The translations under genes and the position numbers were made by a program. Positions 10,752 to 21,579 of a DNA stretch of 23,837 bases are shown here, piece by piece. Below the pieces are notes generated by a model. That model was not told where the DNA came from. It saw nothing but the letters and a program-made list of their open reading frames with translations, and made no database searches. Source of the stretch: a virus. The stretch lies in IMG/VR virus record IMGVR_UViG_3300018067_000027, positions 1 to 23,837 of that record. One strand, written 5' to 3'. How positions within the stretch are numbered: position 1 is the first letter of the stretch; the number at the start of each line of letters is the position of its first letter.

Positions 10752-10874
10752 CTATTCGCGGGTGGCCCGCTGTTCTCGCAACCACGCCTCGGACATGACG
10801 GTAGGGGGAGCGCCTCTCCGCGCCACCCCCCACACCACCACGCCTGCCAGCACCAGCAACAGCGTAGCGATCAT
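10752..10874 (-). CDS. Small single-span membrane protein (40 aa)
   Basis: MIATLLLVLAGVVVWGVARR is one transmembrane helix with a basic stop, then a 20-residue soluble tail. ATG 10874 overlaps the tailspike-like gene stop (ATGA), so it is coupled to that gene. Could be a lysis or host-interaction peptide; no motif decides. Confidence 0.62.
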   Translation of the reverse strand: MIATLLLVLAGVVVWGVARRGAPPTVMSEAWLREQRATRE

Positions 10875-13669
10875 CGCATCCCGTGGATGATGTAGGCCAC
10901 CATGGCGTCTTGGCCACCACCGGGAAGATCGAGCACATCCCCGGCGTTGAACGAACGGTTGGTGACACCGGGGACCGGCTGTCTGGTCAGCGGGTTGTAG
11001 GCCGTGACATTATACAGGTTGTAGCTGGCCCTGAGCGCCACGTGGCCTCGGACGCCGCACGGCATCTGGATCACCCGGCCATCGCCTGCAAGGGCGCTGT
11101 ACGCCTTGTTGACCCCATCCCCGTGGTCCCCCTCCCAGTAGCCGTGCGGCTGGAAAGGAGCGACGGGATTGGGTGGCGTCCACTGCGTGTTGGCGACTTG
11201 CCAGTTCTCCACACCCTCTGGCAGCAGTTCATCGATCCCTCGGACGGCGTCCACGATGGCGTCGATGTTCCCGATCTCCCAGAAGTTGGCAGGCCGTGGC
11301 CCTGCGGTGGGATGCGCCTTGCCGTCGCCGTAAACCCCCGTGCCCGTGTGGAGCACCCAGCCAGCCCCGGAGCACATGACCCCTACCGCCCGCATCATCG
11401 CCAACTGGAGGGGATTGTCGTTCGTTTTGACGCTACTCGCGGGGCCAGCAGGTTCATTGTCCCAGACCACGAAGGGCTTGTAGTCCTTGAAGTCGTAGCC
11501 CTGCCGCACCTGACGCCACTTGTAGTCGCCGTCTCCCCTATCGGGGTGGGCGGTGAAGCCTTGCAGGCCGCTCGACCGGGCGGCGGCGAGAAGATCCTCG
11601 GTGTTGCCGGGTGACGACAGGCACACGATGTTCGGGCAGCGGGCCTTGACCTCTGCGGCCATACGCCGCATCGTCTCGATGGACGGCCCTCCGAGATCGG
11701 CCTCATTGGCCATCTCGAAATCCATCACCATGTGCTGCTGCCCATGCTGTGCAATTGATTGCGAGACTTCACGGGCCAGCCAAATGGGATCCGTGGACGT
11801 GCCCTTGCCGATGAGTGTCAACTCGACACGCATCCCGGCGGCGTAGATGGCATCGACCACTTCGCGGAGCACGGTGCTCCAGTCGCTCCACTGCGGTTTG
11901 GTGGGATCGATGTCTCGGCCATCCCAGCCCACCTCGGTCAGGATGCGGAGGTAATCGAAGCCCTTCTCCGCCGCCCAGCGCAGGTTGGCGAGGAAGTGCT
12001 CCCGTTCGGACTTCCAGCCCTGCATGGCCCAGAAGAACGTCAGGCCCAGCGGATGGAACAGCCCGCCCTCGTCCTGCACCGCTCGTGCAGCGGGCACCAC
12101 GATGCCCGTGCGGGCCACACCTCCACCGGTCGTGGGCGCAGTCTTGGTGAACGTCTCCCACTCGCCTGCGGCGTCTCGATTGGCGAACACATCGTGACTC
12201 AGACGTTCAGCGGCCACGAACTTCCCGTTCCGCACCGACTTGAGGTGGATCTGGTTGGCCTCACCCTCGGTGACGACGTACTCCTCCCACGCGGAGCCGA
12301 TGCCCGGTCGGTCGGCCTTGAGCCGGGTGTCATCCTCGACGGCGGTGTAGCCCTCGTTCATCACCATGCCCACTGCGCCTTCTTCGCTGGGCACGAACTT
12401 CACGAGTGCCCTACGGCCCTCACCGTGGCGCACGAATGCCTCCCCGTCGAGGCTCAGATACGTGCCGTGGAAGGTCTTGAGCCAGAACTCGTCGCCCACA
12501 GGACCGGGATCAGGTCCGGGGCCGGGATCAGGACCGGGTCCGGGTCCGGGGTCTGGGGGGCCAATCACCGGGGGACAAGGCTTGATGGGGCGGGGCATGC
12601 CTGTGGAGGCGGTGCCCTTCGCGTTGGTGATCTCCGCGTACATGCTGCCGTCGCGAATATGCACCCGCGCCTTGTAGCCATGTTGCGGATTGTTCGTGTC
12701 TTCGAAGATGAACTCCCGGCCATCGAGGAGTTCGTTGAGGGTCCACTTCTGCACGTTGACGATGGGCTCTTTCACAGGCGGATCCTCCGGGCTGGGACCG
12801 GGGCCGGGTCCGGGGCCGGGGTCAGTGATGATGGCTGTGCGAATGTCTGAACGAGGCGCAGGACGCCAGAGGTTATCGCCCCATGGATCCCGTACGAAGT
12901 TGCGGGTCACGTCGTAGTCGCGGACCCACACGTCGCCGGGTTGCTCCCCCTCCCCTCGGGCCATGGCCAGCCGGATGATGTCCGGGGAGAGCGCCCGCAG
13001 GGTGTGCCATGCGTTACCTGTGGTGACCACGTAGCCCACGAAGGAGTCGAAGGGGTGGAACACCAGCCCGTAGGTGCCGTTGTAGTAGGCTCCCCACCAT
13101 GTGCCTCCGGCATGGGCGGCTTCGAAGCGCCACACACCACCCTCGGGCGCGTAGTGCGGCTGGGGGATATCGTTGACCGCCACCACCTGACCGGCGTAGG
13201 TCGTCATCATCGCCCGCCGACCACCCAGTAGCTGCACCCACTGCGGAGAGCCACCGGTCAACTGCCAATCCTCGCCGTTCAACTCACGGACGTGGGTGGG
13301 ACCGTTGCTCTGGTAGTCAGGCTTGTAACAGATGGCCGCGAGTGGACCCATGGCCAGCAGGCCCGCATCAGGCAGACGAAGCCCTGTGGTGGAGTGGAGC
13401 CCTCGGTCAGGGTAGCTCGTAGCTTGGAACCACGTCAGATGACCGCCACCCGCGTAGCCCTGATTGCCGAAGGCGTCCCCGACGCTCACGCTCACCCCGG
13501 TCGTGATGTCATAGAGGCGGGGGAGCCCATCCGGGCCTGCCAGATAGCCGACGCGATCCTCGTCTACCCAACCGCACACGGCTCCTGCTGAAAAGGGCAC
13601 GTTGTTGACGGACGCTTGTCCACCACCGACTCCGTGGCAGACATCACCTCGACCGTTCAGATAGGGCAT
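10871..13669 (-). CDS. Tailspike/tail-fibre-like multidomain glycosidase
   Basis: 932 aa. Residues 1-275 are beta-rich with repeated W/G strands (propeller-like). A Pro-Gly linker (about 281-296) leads to a small domain, then a second P-G-P linker (about 370-392). Residues about 393-500 look like a fascin-type beta-trefoil (FHGTYLSLDGE..., RNGKFVAAE). From about 525 a TIM-barrel clan GH-A-like domain shows MDFEMANEAD (acid/base E656) and VWDNEPAG (nucleophile E739), then a C-terminal beta domain. This suits adsorption and degradation of host surface polysaccharide. ATG 13669 has GGAG 6 bases upstream. No structural neighbours confirm virion location, so a secreted glycanase is the alternative. 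Confidence 0.78.
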   Translation of the reverse strand: MPYLNGRGDVCHGVGGGQASVNNVPFSAGAVCGWVDEDRVGYLAGPDGLPRLYDITTGVSVSVGDAFGNQGYAGGGHLTWFQATSYPDRGLHSTTGLRLPDAGLLAMGPLAAICYKPDYQSNGPTHVRELNGEDWQLTGGSPQWVQLLGGRRAMMTTYAGQVVAVNDIPQPHYAPEGGVWRFEAAHAGGTWWGAYYNGTYGLVFHPFDSFVGYVVTTGNAWHTLRALSPDIIRLAMARGEGEQPGDVWVRDYDVTRNFVRDPWGDNLWRPAPRSDIRTAIITDPGPGPGPGPSPEDPPVKEPIVNVQKWTLNELLDGREFIFEDTNNPQHGYKARVHIRDGSMYAEITNAKGTASTGMPRPIKPCPPVIGPPDPGPGPGPDPGPGPDPGPVGDEFWLKTFHGTYLSLDGEAFVRHGEGRRALVKFVPSEEGAVGMVMNEGYTAVEDDTRLKADRPGIGSAWEEYVVTEGEANQIHLKSVRNGKFVAAERLSHDVFANRDAAGEWETFTKTAPTTGGGVARTGIVVPAARAVQDEGGLFHPLGLTFFWAMQGWKSEREHFLANLRWAAEKGFDYLRILTEVGWDGRDIDPTKPQWSDWSTVLREVVDAIYAAGMRVELTLIGKGTSTDPIWLAREVSQSIAQHGQQHMVMDFEMANEADLGGPSIETMRRMAAEVKARCPNIVCLSSPGNTEDLLAAARSSGLQGFTAHPDRGDGDYKWRQVRQGYDFKDYKPFVVWDNEPAGPASSVKTNDNPLQLAMMRAVGVMCSGAGWVLHTGTGVYGDGKAHPTAGPRPANFWEIGNIDAIVDAVRGIDELLPEGVENWQVANTQWTPPNPVAPFQPHGYWEGDHGDGVNKAYSALAGDGRVIQMPCGVRGHVALRASYNLYNVTAYNPLTRQPVPGVTNRSFNAGDVLDLPGGGQDAMVAYIIHGMR
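12490..12830 (-). repeat. Low-complexity Pro-Gly linker DNA (two tracts)
   Basis: Tracts at about 12500-12555 and 12795-12825 are made of repeated GGTCCGGGGCCGGG-like units encoding PGPGP linkers between domains of the tailspike-like protein. Confidence 0.7.
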
Positions 13670-13695
13670 GGCGCTCCGTTGAGGAAAGTCTGATC

Positions 13696-13830
13696 CTACT
13701 GCACTGGTGCAACTGAGTGCAAGGGGCACAACCAGTATCGTTCACCGGCAAGGATGATCTCCGTCCACCCACGTGCCAACACCACCTTGCGGGGGGCGAA
13801 GATCTCTCGGGTGCAATGCAGGCACTGCAT
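13696..13830 (-). CDS. Small zinc-knuckle protein (44 aa)
   Basis: MQCLHCTREIFAPRKVVLAR, ending with YWLCPLHSVAPVQ: a CLHC...CPLH metal-binding pattern. ATG 13830 has a GAGG leader. Operator-like site 4 lies in its final codons. It follows a terminator, so its transcription source is unclear (read-through or a weak promoter). Confidence 0.6.
   Translation of the reverse strand: MQCLHCTREIFAPRKVVLARGWTEIILAGERYWLCPLHSVAPVQ
13708..13721 (-). promoter_or_regulatory. Operator-like palindrome, site 4, with overlapping second palindrome
   Basis: Minus strand TGCACTCAGTTGCA; its last TGCA continues as TGCACCAGTGCA (13699-13711), giving two overlapping dyads about 40 bp before the tailspike-like start. 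Confidence 0.5.
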
Positions 13831-14728: not shown

Positions 14729-15370
14729 TTACGCGGCTACCCGACGACGGAGCCGACGTCCCACCCCCAACAGGCCCATGCCCATCAGGGCGAGGCTGGC
14801 CGGTTCAGGCACTGCCGCATCCGTCGCGGAGAAGCTGAACGCGCTTCCCGTGTTCGTGAGGGAAATCGTAAAGATACCCGGTGTGTTGTCGAACCCGGCG
14901 ATGTGAAACAGCCCGGTCCCCTTCAGCACCAGCGCATCCACGCTGCTGAACGGCTTGAGGACCGACAGCATATCGAACGTCGCTCCGCCCGCCGACGTCT
15001 GCCACGCCGCAATAGGCACGCCCTGATACACCCCGCACGAACCGGGGACGAAGCAGAAGTCCTTGATGGTCCCCGCCCCGACGATCCCGGCAAACACGCC
15101 CGTGCCTCCGTCAATGCTCATCGGACCCGCCACGTTCGGCGTGGGCGCACCCGTGCTGGTGAAGTCGAGCGCCACCGCTTGGTCGAGCGTCGTCTGGACA
15201 CCCGCACCCGTCACCCCAAAGACGCAATCAGCACCCGGACACACCAGCAGTGACTGCGAGAGCGTGACGGACCCCGTGATCGGGACCGCCGATGCCTGCG
15301 CGGCCATCACCACGAACAGTGCGAGACTCAGAAACCCTACAAAAACACTGCGCTTCACGTTGCTGCTCAT
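14729..15370 (-). CDS. Exported PEP-CTERM sorting-domain protein
   Basis: 213 aa. A signal peptide (residues 1-28, cleavage after AQASA) is followed by a beta-rich secreted domain with two Cys pairs. The C-terminus is VPEPASLALMGMGLLGVGRR plus RLRRR: the PEP motif, a hydrophobic span and an Arg cluster. That tripartite tail is the PEP-CTERM signal cut by exosortases in Gram-negative bacteria that make extracellular polysaccharide. No exosortase is seen here, so sorting would need the host. ATG 15370 has GGGGG upstream and a near-perfect promoter at 15412-15440. Likely an accessory 'moron' gene taken from a host. Confidence 0.88.
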   Translation of the reverse strand: MSSNVKRSVFVGFLSLALFVVMAAQASAVPITGSVTLSQSLLVCPGADCVFGVTGAGVQTTLDQAVALDFTSTGAPTPNVAGPMSIDGGTGVFAGIVGAGTIKDFCFVPGSCGVYQGVPIAAWQTSAGGATFDMLSVLKPFSSVDALVLKGTGLFHIAGFDNTPGIFTISLTNTGSAFSFSATDAAVPEPASLALMGMGLLGVGRRLRRRVAA

Positions 15371-18479: not shown

Positions 18480-18665
18480 CTATGGTGTAGACCGTGTGAG
18501 TGACCCTAGCCCATCCTTGAGGAGGGTCAGGGCGAACTCCTGTTTATCAATCCGCTCTTGGAGGAAGTCGATGAGCTTGGACGCGTCGTACTGGTCCTTG
18601 GGGGTGGCGGCTCCCTTGCTCAGGACGTTACGGAGGCGATCATGGTGCTCATGCTTGGGGAACAT
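18480..18665 (-). CDS. Small helical protein (61 aa)
   Basis: MFPKHEHHDRLRNVLSKGAA, 'YDASKLIDFLQERIDKQEFALTLLKDGL'. ATG overlaps the upstream stop (TGATG) and has GGAG. Unknown role. Confidence 0.65.
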   Translation of the reverse strand: MFPKHEHHDRLRNVLSKGAATPKDQYDASKLIDFLQERIDKQEFALTLLKDGLGSLTRSTP

Positions 18666-18847
18666 CAGGGCGTCTTCTCCGCGTAGATACGTTCAAGGAT
18701 TTCGTACTGCCGTTCAGAGAGCGTACCTCTGGACTGGTACTGCTCATTTAAGGACTCGATGAAGTTTTCTTCCCACTTGGTGAGCGTCTTGTGGGGCGTT
18801 TCCAAGGCTCGGAGCATGTGTTCGATGTTCTCGGACTGAGACGGCAT
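18665..18847 (-). CDS. Small phage protein, LTKWEE...ERIYAEK type (60 aa)
   Basis: MPSQSENIEHMLRALETPHK then LTKWEENFIESLNEQYQSRG and LSERQYEILERIYAEK. This helix pair recurs in phage replication regions in my memory; role unknown. ATG 18847 has AAGAGGT. The Cys-rich gene upstream overlaps it by about 100 bp in another frame. Confidence 0.7.
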   Translation of the reverse strand: MPSQSENIEHMLRALETPHKTLTKWEENFIESLNEQYQSRGTLSERQYEILERIYAEKTP

Positions 18848-19040
18848 AGAACACCTCTTGTGGCTCAGGGGCAGGGAAGTGGTGGAAGCAGGGGATACTG
18901 TCACCATCCATGGCCAGCGGGGGATCGAGCGTGGGGTTCTGCGTGCATGTCCCTCGCTCCGAATACTCACGCGTCCACCGATTATGTGCCCAGATCCCGT
19001 AATCTTTCTTCCAGAAATGACAAGTATTACAAGTGGCCAT
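18744..19040 (-). CDS. Cys-rich protein with recoded 5' end (HNH insertion target)
   Basis: 98 aa: MATCNTCHFWKKDYGIWAHN, then RGTCTQNP and IPCFHHF, a probable zinc site. The first 12 residues duplicate the stub at 19512-19553 (MPSCSTCHFWKKG) but with AT-rich codons like the HNH gene. The HNH stop overlaps its ATG by 14 bp. The last third overlaps the next gene by about 100 bp, unusual here; the true C-terminus may be changed. Function unknown. Confidence 0.68.
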   Translation of the reverse strand: MATCNTCHFWKKDYGIWAHNRWTREYSERGTCTQNPTLDPPLAMDGDSIPCFHHFPAPEPQEVFYAVSVREHRTHAPSLGNAPQDAHQVGRKLHRVLK

Positions 19041-19509
19041 CTGGAAAGTTTACCTTTGCAAACTCGCCATGTAACTTCAAGGCCGCAGTATCATACGCAC
19101 GAGCCGCTTCTACTGAATCGGTGAAGTACCCTAGATGGATTTCCTTATAATTCGCGCAAATAACAGCCTTCCATCGACCTGCTCGTTTATTCCACGTAAC
19201 CCCTTTGTGGGGACAAGACGAGGGGGATTTCTTCTTACTCTTATTTCTCGCGTTCTGAAGTGGAGTGGCCACACGAAGATTACTTCGCCTGTTATTTAGC
19301 CCGTCGCCATCAATGTGGTCCCCGCCCTTGGTCCCTAAGATGAGCGCCTGCATCTGAAGCGATCTTCTCTTACCCTCCACGCGCACATTCGTGTTGGCGT
19401 ACCACCGCTGCTTGTGGTCGAACACAGCGTGCCACTTGTGTTGAGCAATGAGTGGGTGGTCCTCATCGTCAATGACAGCCGTTTTACCTTGCGTAAGGGG
19501 TATAAGCAC
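19027..19509 (-). CDS. HNH homing endonuclease with AP2 DNA-binding domain
   Basis: 160 aa starting at GTG (MLIPLTQGKTAVIDDED). HNH core GDHIDGDGLNNRRSNLRVAT (about 86-105) is followed by an AP2 domain, KGVTWNKRAGRWKAVICANY then EIHLGYF..EEAA-like helix and HGEFAKVNF. The usual MHR..LG is MQALILG here. Codons are AT-richer than the rest of the window, a mark of transfer. It is inserted at the 5' end of the Cys-rich gene (see stub). Such enzymes nick or cut recipient DNA so that their own gene spreads. Confidence 0.88.
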   Translation of the reverse strand: MLIPLTQGKTAVIDDEDHPLIAQHKWHAVFDHKQRWYANTNVRVEGKRRSLQMQALILGTKGGDHIDGDGLNNRRSNLRVATPLQNARNKSKKKSPSSCPHKGVTWNKRAGRWKAVICANYKEIHLGYFTDSVEAARAYDTAALKLHGEFAKVNFPDGHL

Positions 19510-19511
19510 GA

Positions 19512-19553
19512 CTACCCCTTCTTCCAGAAGTGACAGGTGCTACACGACGGCAT
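19512..19553 (-). pseudogene. 13-codon stub of the Cys-rich gene left by the HNH insertion
   Basis: Reads MPSCSTCHFWKKG then TAG. Residues 4-12 match the start of the 18744-19040 protein (C.TCHFWKK). Its codons are GC-rich like the surrounding phage. It looks like the original start of the gene, cut off by the inserted endonuclease. No SD is visible. Confidence 0.7.
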
Positions 19554-19566
19554 AGGATGGACAGAG

Positions 19567-19595
19567 AGTGTAGCACTAAGAGAACTCCCTGACTA
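19567..19595 (-). promoter_or_regulatory. Possible promoter TAGTCA-17-TACACT
   Basis: Moderate -35 (19595-19590) and -10 (19572-19567) with 17-bp spacing, 13 bp before the stub start. Could be the original promoter of the interrupted gene. Confidence 0.4.
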
Positions 19596-20724: not shown

Positions 20725-21579
20725 TCAGCCCTGCGCGACGGGCTCTGCCTCGGCTTCGGGTTCGCCCTCGGCCTCCGCCTCGTCCTGCCCGACCGGCTTG
20801 ACGATGATGTCGTAGTCCGGAAACTTGGCCGCGATGGCCTTGAGCAGCGGCTCAAAACCGGTGGCGTCGATGACTTCATCGAGGCTGTAGGGCTTCGCGG
20901 CCTCCGTGGTGCCGCCGACGTATCCGGCGCAAATCTGTTCCAGCGCGACGGTGTCGTACTCGGTCTGCAACTCGCCCTTGGCCTTCGCGAGTGCCTGCCC
21001 GACGATCTCGGCCTGATCACCCTTCAGCTTGAACACCAGCTTGACGATGTCGTCCGTCGCCTTCTGGGTCTTCTCGCTCTCGCCGTCCTCGTCGCCCTTC
21101 AGCGCCTTCAGGACTGCGATCAGTTCCACGACCGTGAGCTTCTCGGCTTTGGCCACCCACTCGTCCACCGTCTCCGGCGTGATGATGGGCGCAATCTCCT
21201 TGAGCTTCGTCCAGCCCAAGCCGCTGACCTTCTCCCACGGAATCATCTTCGTCACGAGGTGATCGTAGATGCTCACGAGGTAGCGGGCCTTCCGACCGGC
21301 GAACTGGTACTTCTCGAAAACGAAGTCGTCAAAGGTCTTGTAACCTTCGAACCACGAGTTGTCGTTGATCAACTTCAGCACGCCACCCAGCTTGAAGTAG
21401 TTGACCTCGATGTTCTCGGCCAGATTGTCGGCCATGTTGAGCGCCTTGGTCTTGGACAGCGACTCCACCTCGTGGGCGATGTCCAGAATCAAGTCGCCGG
21501 TTTTCTCGATCTTCTTCTTCCCGATCACGGCGGTTTCGGGCTTGGCTTCCTCGACCACCGCGCCTACTGCTTCACTCAT
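20725..21579 (-). CDS. Conserved phage protein with helical core and acidic tail (284 aa)
   Basis: Central region 'NYFKLGGVLKLINDNSWFEGYKTFDDFVFEKYQFAGRK' split over two helices resembles DUF3102/KilA-associated phage proteins by feel only. 'GWTKLKEIAPIITPETVDEWVAKAEKLTVVEL' suggests a helix-hairpin DNA-binding module. Last 30 residues are Glu/Ala-rich. ATG 21579 has AAGGAG; promoter 21613-21641 precedes. Role unknown, perhaps DNA-associated. Confidence 0.72.
   Translation of the reverse strand: MSEAVGAVVEEAKPETAVIGKKKIEKTGDLILDIAHEVESLSKTKALNMADNLAENIEVNYFKLGGVLKLINDNSWFEGYKTFDDFVFEKYQFAGRKARYLVSIYDHLVTKMIPWEKVSGLGWTKLKEIAPIITPETVDEWVAKAEKLTVVELIAVLKALKGDEDGESEKTQKATDDIVKLVFKLKGDQAEIVGQALAKAKGELQTEYDTVALEQICAGYVGGTTEAAKPYSLDEVIDATGFEPLLKAIAAKFPDYDIIVKPVGQDEAEAEGEPEAEAEPVAQG

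Follow-up and report, generated by a model that had tools for sequence, protein, structure and literature searches.

A phage HNH-AP2 endonuclease gene that probably brought in a replacement 5' end for the gene it interrupts

Selfish endonuclease genes usually spare their hosts by lying between genes or by splicing out. The closest precedent for the arrangement reported here is found in the mobile ORFs of fungal mitochondria, which formed gene hybrids in atp6 of Allomyces macrogynus and in atp6, atp9, cox2 and nad3 of Glomus sp.; there, an ORF for a LAGLIDADG or GIY-YIG enzyme lies within a gene, the 3' end of that gene is replaced by a diverged copy and the native end is left as a remnant (PMC3630166). 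In phages, free-standing HNH endonucleases split nrdA of Aeh1 (mobE) and gene 60 of T4 (mobA); they use the promoter of the host gene, start/stop overlaps suggesting coupling are described for them and for endonucleases of T4, and the host gene is split into two functional polypeptides, with no end described as duplicated or replaced (PMC2988022). The HNH insertion in the ShiLan methylase gene has no recognisable intron or intein, a GTG near one edge and a stop at the far edge, and the host gene reads through it in another frame (PMC11855218). The available sections of the report on the IPA-HNH class, which combines HNH and AP2 domains, describe no replacement gene end (PMC10448857); in the corresponding sections of surveys of ICP1 and of Skunavirus, the HNH genes are free-standing, truncated or linked to introns. 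In insects, the engineered CRISPR constructs known as HomeR home-and-rescue drives pair a nuclease with a piece of the target that restores function and is meant to resist cutting (PMC7968924). We found no published case of 5'-end replacement by an HNH gene in a phage in the open-access literature.

Here, we analyzed a viral DNA of 23,837 nucleotides (positions 1 to 23,837 of IMG/VR record IMGVR_UViG_3300018067_000027; the whole stretch is called the window), in which a stub, an HNH-AP2 endonuclease gene and an intact gene for a Cys-rich protein follow one another on the minus strand. The stub (19512..19553, minus strand; ATG at 19553-19551, TAG at 19514-19512) has 13 codons and reads MPSCSTCHFWKKG before its stop. 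The endonuclease gene (19027..19509, minus strand; 160 aa) starts with a GTG at 19509, 2 nt after the stub's TAG, and ends with a TAA at 19029-19027. Because stop and start are so close, translation of the stub and of the endonuclease may be coupled; AAGAAGGGG within the stub (19515..19523, minus strand), as read from the sequence, is a possible Shine-Dalgarno element for the HNH gene. The Cys-rich ORF starts at an ATG at 19040 with MATCNTCHFWKKDYGIW (in a longer reading, MATCNTCHFWKKDYGIWAHNRWTRE), and its first 14 nt are at the same time the 3' end of the HNH ORF. Its first 36 nt (MATCNTCHFWKK; 19005..19040, minus strand) are a second copy of the stub's start, the putative replacement 5' end, with 27/36 nt and 9/12 residues identical, including TCHFWKK in both. 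From codon 13 on (DYGIWAHNRWTRE; 18744..19004, minus strand), the gene is conserved with relatives that lack the HNH gene and is the native remainder.

The first-pass annotation had noticed the same protein start on either side of the HNH-AP2 gene, and its coordinates proved exact. It had also described the second copy as synonymous, and as written in AT-rich codons like those of the HNH gene in place of the GC-rich codons of the phage. Each of these descriptions holds in part. GC3 is indeed higher in the stub (0.83) than in the second copy (0.42; Cys-rich gene body, 0.69), but the HNH gene itself is just mildly AT-rich (GC 0.51, against 0.56-0.57 in the flanks). Similarly, the codon differs at three of the nine identical residues, but the residues are unlike at 3/12 positions, so the copy is not purely synonymous.

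Related phage contigs were gathered with the Cys-rich protein and the phage large terminase as queries. The Cys-rich gene is one uninterrupted ORF, with neither HNH gene nor stub, in 20 contigs (L001, L002, L020, L021, L025, L026, L027, L030, L032, L034, L038, L040, L044 and L216, some of whose forms are repeated by L028, L033, L035-L037 and L047); these amount to ~13 distinct forms, since L020 and L044 are near-identical. A second copy of the Cys-rich start was found at the site in none of the 20. HNH-less relatives with two Cys-rich genes, which would have spoken against the splitting of one gene, were thus looked for and never seen, and the earlier proposal that the HNH gene split its target while leaving the gene intact agrees with these relatives. 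The start motif of the relatives is M--C--C--W(K/R)KDWG(I/V)WAHNRWT (DYG instead of DWG in L001, L002 and the window), and the stub fits the M--C--C--WKK start of their single intact gene. In addition, neighbouring genes are common to the window and the HNH-less relatives: a downstream neighbour of ~60 aa (MPSQSENIEHMLRAL; 18665..18847, minus strand) is syntenic, and an upstream one of 284 aa (PHROG 17202; 20725..21579, minus strand) is also upstream in L001, L025, L026 and L038. Because the relatives carry a single uninterrupted gene, we read the stub as the displaced native start, codon 13 onward as native, and the HNH gene with the second start as inserted. On this alignment, the insertion is the HNH ORF plus the 36-nt replacement start (~513 nt) and is placed after codon 12, within the best-conserved stretch of the Cys-rich gene (mean conservation 0.88 in codons 10-23, 0.71 before and 0.65 after), and the occupied state is derived relative to the HNH-less one. 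The nearest phage, L003/L018, is 95% identical where aligned and is uninformative on empty versus occupied, because the L003 contig starts inside the Cys-rich gene. A DNA search of the window region against annotated phages gave no match, and an exact degenerate pattern for KDYGIWAHN recovered only the L001 and L002 contigs. An in-frame TAG takes the place of the conserved W17 codon in the Cys-rich gene of L021 (1108-1110).

The locus thus resembles the fungal mitochondrial ORFs in that an empty allele exists, a diverged copy remakes the reading frame and the native end persists as a remnant, but the affected end is the 5' one, the setting is a phage, the enzyme is of the HNH-AP2 type, and what was the native start now appears to be the leader of the endonuclease. 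With mobE and mobA it shares a free-standing HNH gene in a phage gene, apparent use of the host-gene promoter and a start/stop overlap, but here an end is duplicated. The GTG near one edge, the stop at the far edge and the lack of a recognisable intron or intein recall ShiLan, but the window gene restarts with a new 5' end instead of reading through. The likeness to HomeR is a functional analogy only.

The endonuclease itself has the architecture of the IPA-HNH class, with Pfam matches to HNH_3 (1.1e-6) and AP2 (3.6e-9), both better than the cut-off, and it matches PHROG 99, HNH endonuclease (1.3e-36). The family profile of the HNH protein matched I-HmuI (1u3e; 1.6e-8), an intron-encoded enzyme without AP2, and D64, H65, N73 and N86, which are invariant across the family alignment, aligned with the DH...N...N residues of the HNH motif in I-HmuI. 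In the same alignment, the window protein has QMQAL where most relatives carry an MHRxI-type segment, and because of this it may be weakened or inactive. The ...NFP end common in the family is followed in the window by DGHL and the stop, which are encoded by the replacement start. When viral contigs were searched with the window protein, relatives were only 39-40% identical and none lay at the same site; mobility at the window site was not observed, as no second phage with an HNH gene there was found.

The anatomy of the locus settles that the stub is the native start, since it stops at the edge of the insertion, whereas the second copy is physically continuous with the HNH ORF. Stub-like codons had been predicted for HNH-less relatives, and for the window this fits L216, the relative most similar at the 5' end (8/36 mismatches to the stub and 12 to the second copy), whereas the means across 14 relatives were equal (12.9 and 12.9). 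Codons by themselves are indecisive here because divergence from the relatives is too great. The two copies differ by 9 mismatches, and either differs from any relative by 8 or more. A pair that is probably the Cys-rich gene's native promoter, and that now precedes stub and HNH gene, is at 19567..19595 on the minus strand (TAGTCA, 19595-19590; 17 nt; TACACT, 19572-19567). L216 has TTGACG-17-TACACT with identical position, spacing and -10, and similar pairs occur 9-13 nt 5' of the ATG in 10/13 HNH-less relatives; 8% of random windows reach a promoter match score of at least 8/12, and the stub promoter was absent from the output of the general scan. Displacement of the promoter is not clear-cut because a promoter-like pair (8/12) also lies 5' of the replacement copy. 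The stub holds the position of the native start and, on moderate evidence, its probable promoter. The replacement start differs from it in amino acids, base composition and codons, and therefore most likely derives from the gene start of a diverged orthologue and arrived with the endonuclease, rather than being a purely synonymous recoding.

To place the window among other loci, 247 HNH-AP2 loci were assembled from phage, viral and genome collections (207 distinct, 205 testable), and six-frame peptides from the two sides of each endonuclease gene were compared, with 2,500 mismatched upstream/downstream pairs as the control (mean score 29.6, 99.9% at 47, maximum 53). The peptide common to both sides of the window's HNH gene scored 64, and chance is thus an unlikely source of the repeated start. 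Scores of at least 45 were reached by 14/205 loci (0.4 expected) and scores of at least 50 by 11/205 (0.16 expected). Matches were accepted or rejected by eye, several being low-complexity sequence or repeats, and inspection left four of the 11 highest scorers as 5'-end cases (the window, L272, L064 and L122), so that the layout recurs in several unrelated viruses; all end-replacement cases, that of the window included, come from metagenomic assemblies. Visual inspection of ten HNH-AP2 loci, eight in annotated phages and two in viral contigs, turned up no duplication of this kind. Several high-scoring candidates were dropped: L056 for an HTH-domain similarity (0.41 nt identity) in which the end duplication was not clean, L292 since the resemblance was mostly in the common ribosome-binding-site region, and GC-rich low-complexity pairs such as L137, L192, L199 and L212. 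L172 was dropped as a dispersed direct repeat; at 1280-2135 it carries several repeat copies (GTAGGATGGGTAACTCGTTACCCATGCGGTTTCTA and a near copy) on either side of its HNH-AP2 gene.

In L272, the native start MEAISGTRRAMKE opens the HNH ORF in frame, and the TGA that ends this ORF shares bases with the start ATG of the restored gene (MNAISGTRRSMREMADG). Over the residues I-S-G-T-R-R, the HNH-less L295 has the codon of the L272 stub in five of six cases and that of the replacement in none of the six, so the predicted stub-like codons were found in this independent locus. The relatives that the L272 gene has among annotated phages resemble it in the C-terminal half only. In L064, GC is 0.53 in a 50-codon stub, 0.39 in the HNH gene, 0.37 in the replacement start and 0.54 in the native remainder, and 27/50 aligned residues are identical between stub and replacement; this composition suggests a foreign donor of the replacement end, although no donor was found, and a search for relatives of the L064 target gene found none. 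The case of L122 resembles the others but is weaker. Three further candidates (L173, L121 and L066) concern the 3' end, where short diverged copies of the gene's last codons flank the endonuclease; in L066 (1445-1990), an antisense HNH gene lies near the gene's 3' end with VIQQQLEEL and VIEQQLKEL on either side. Directly 5' of the HNH-AP2 gene of L121 (1369-1435) is a match to int-alpA-like RNA, at 27.2 bits below the cut-off of 35.8, and in L173 and L122 the endonuclease is preceded by sequence resembling a promoter and by a leader that may be structured.

In the phage group of the window itself, a different AP2-type endonuclease ORF opens at the terminase start (MLAVLK...) in L032 (4487-4957; also in L031, L033 and L039), and a TTG within the 3' end of that ORF serves as the new terminase start (LLVFKRGPG). 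This locus is a possible further case, short and only suggestive.

A repeated start could also arise if insertion had duplicated ~36 bp of the target site and the copies had then drifted, with no foreign gene end involved. The shared TCHFWKK would fit such an event, as would a divergence between the copies that is close to that from the relatives. The other loci argue otherwise, because the replacement in L064 resembles the endonuclease in GC and not the host gene, and because L272 changed 5/6 of the common codons while its stub kept those of the HNH-less relative; moreover, long target duplications are not known from HNH homing enzymes. We consider this explanation unlikely. Still less probable is that two paralogous Cys-rich genes came first and that the stub is what decay left of the first of them, after the endonuclease had inserted within it or between the two: the residue differences between stub and intact start are what paralogues might show, but two copies occur in none of the relatives, the end of the stub coincides exactly with the start of the HNH gene and the first gene is wholly absent past codon 12.

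Short N-terminal exons beside endonuclease genes do exist, as in the ICP1 terminase (PMC10448857), and the stub might accordingly be spliced to the gene body by a self-splicing intron or an intein that carries the endonuclease. The HNH gene and the replacement start fill the insertion with no spare sequence, Rfam gave no intron family even at a relaxed threshold, the stub terminates in a stop codon, and a second coding of the same protein start is not expected of an intron; there is next to no chance that splicing explains the locus.

In contrast to these three, insertion of a free-standing HNH-AP2 homing element that brought a replacement 5' end into the Cys-rich gene is, in our judgement from the sequences, the probable history of the locus. 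By analogy with homing-endonuclease biology, the endonuclease would cut or nick an uninterrupted site at the conserved codons on either side of where the insertion lies, and repair would copy the cassette in, the homology being the conserved block just 3' of the insertion. The first 12 native codons and the original promoter would stay behind as a short leader for the endonuclease, which probably owes its expression to the host gene, with AAGAAGGGG in the stub codons preceding the GTG. The replacement 5' end would remake the full reading frame and, by its difference from the stub, prevent recutting; the start of the restored gene within the end of the endonuclease gene may provide translational coupling. 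More broadly, we give an even chance to the idea that phage HNH-AP2 elements include a recurring natural class of cut-and-rescue elements, which carry a cleavage-resistant target end (5' or 3') and capture the target's start signals.

Such an arrangement would be another way to occupy coding sequence, in which the broken part is replaced, and a natural counterpart of the engineered home-and-rescue drives. If true, it would explain how intron-less endonucleases enter genes, and it would offer phages a source of chimeric gene starts. As the alleles are only a few dozen bases each, the proposed protection is directly testable with short substrates.

Two other features of the window stand apart from this locus. 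An ORF of 952 aa with proline/glycine-rich linkers (10871-13729, minus strand) has no confident match in Pfam or NCBIfam. The protein encoded at 14729-15370 (minus strand) combines an N-terminus resembling a signal peptide with a PEP-CTERM sorting signal (PF07589, 2.7e-7; also NCBIfam PEP-CTERM families), an unusual phage cargo.
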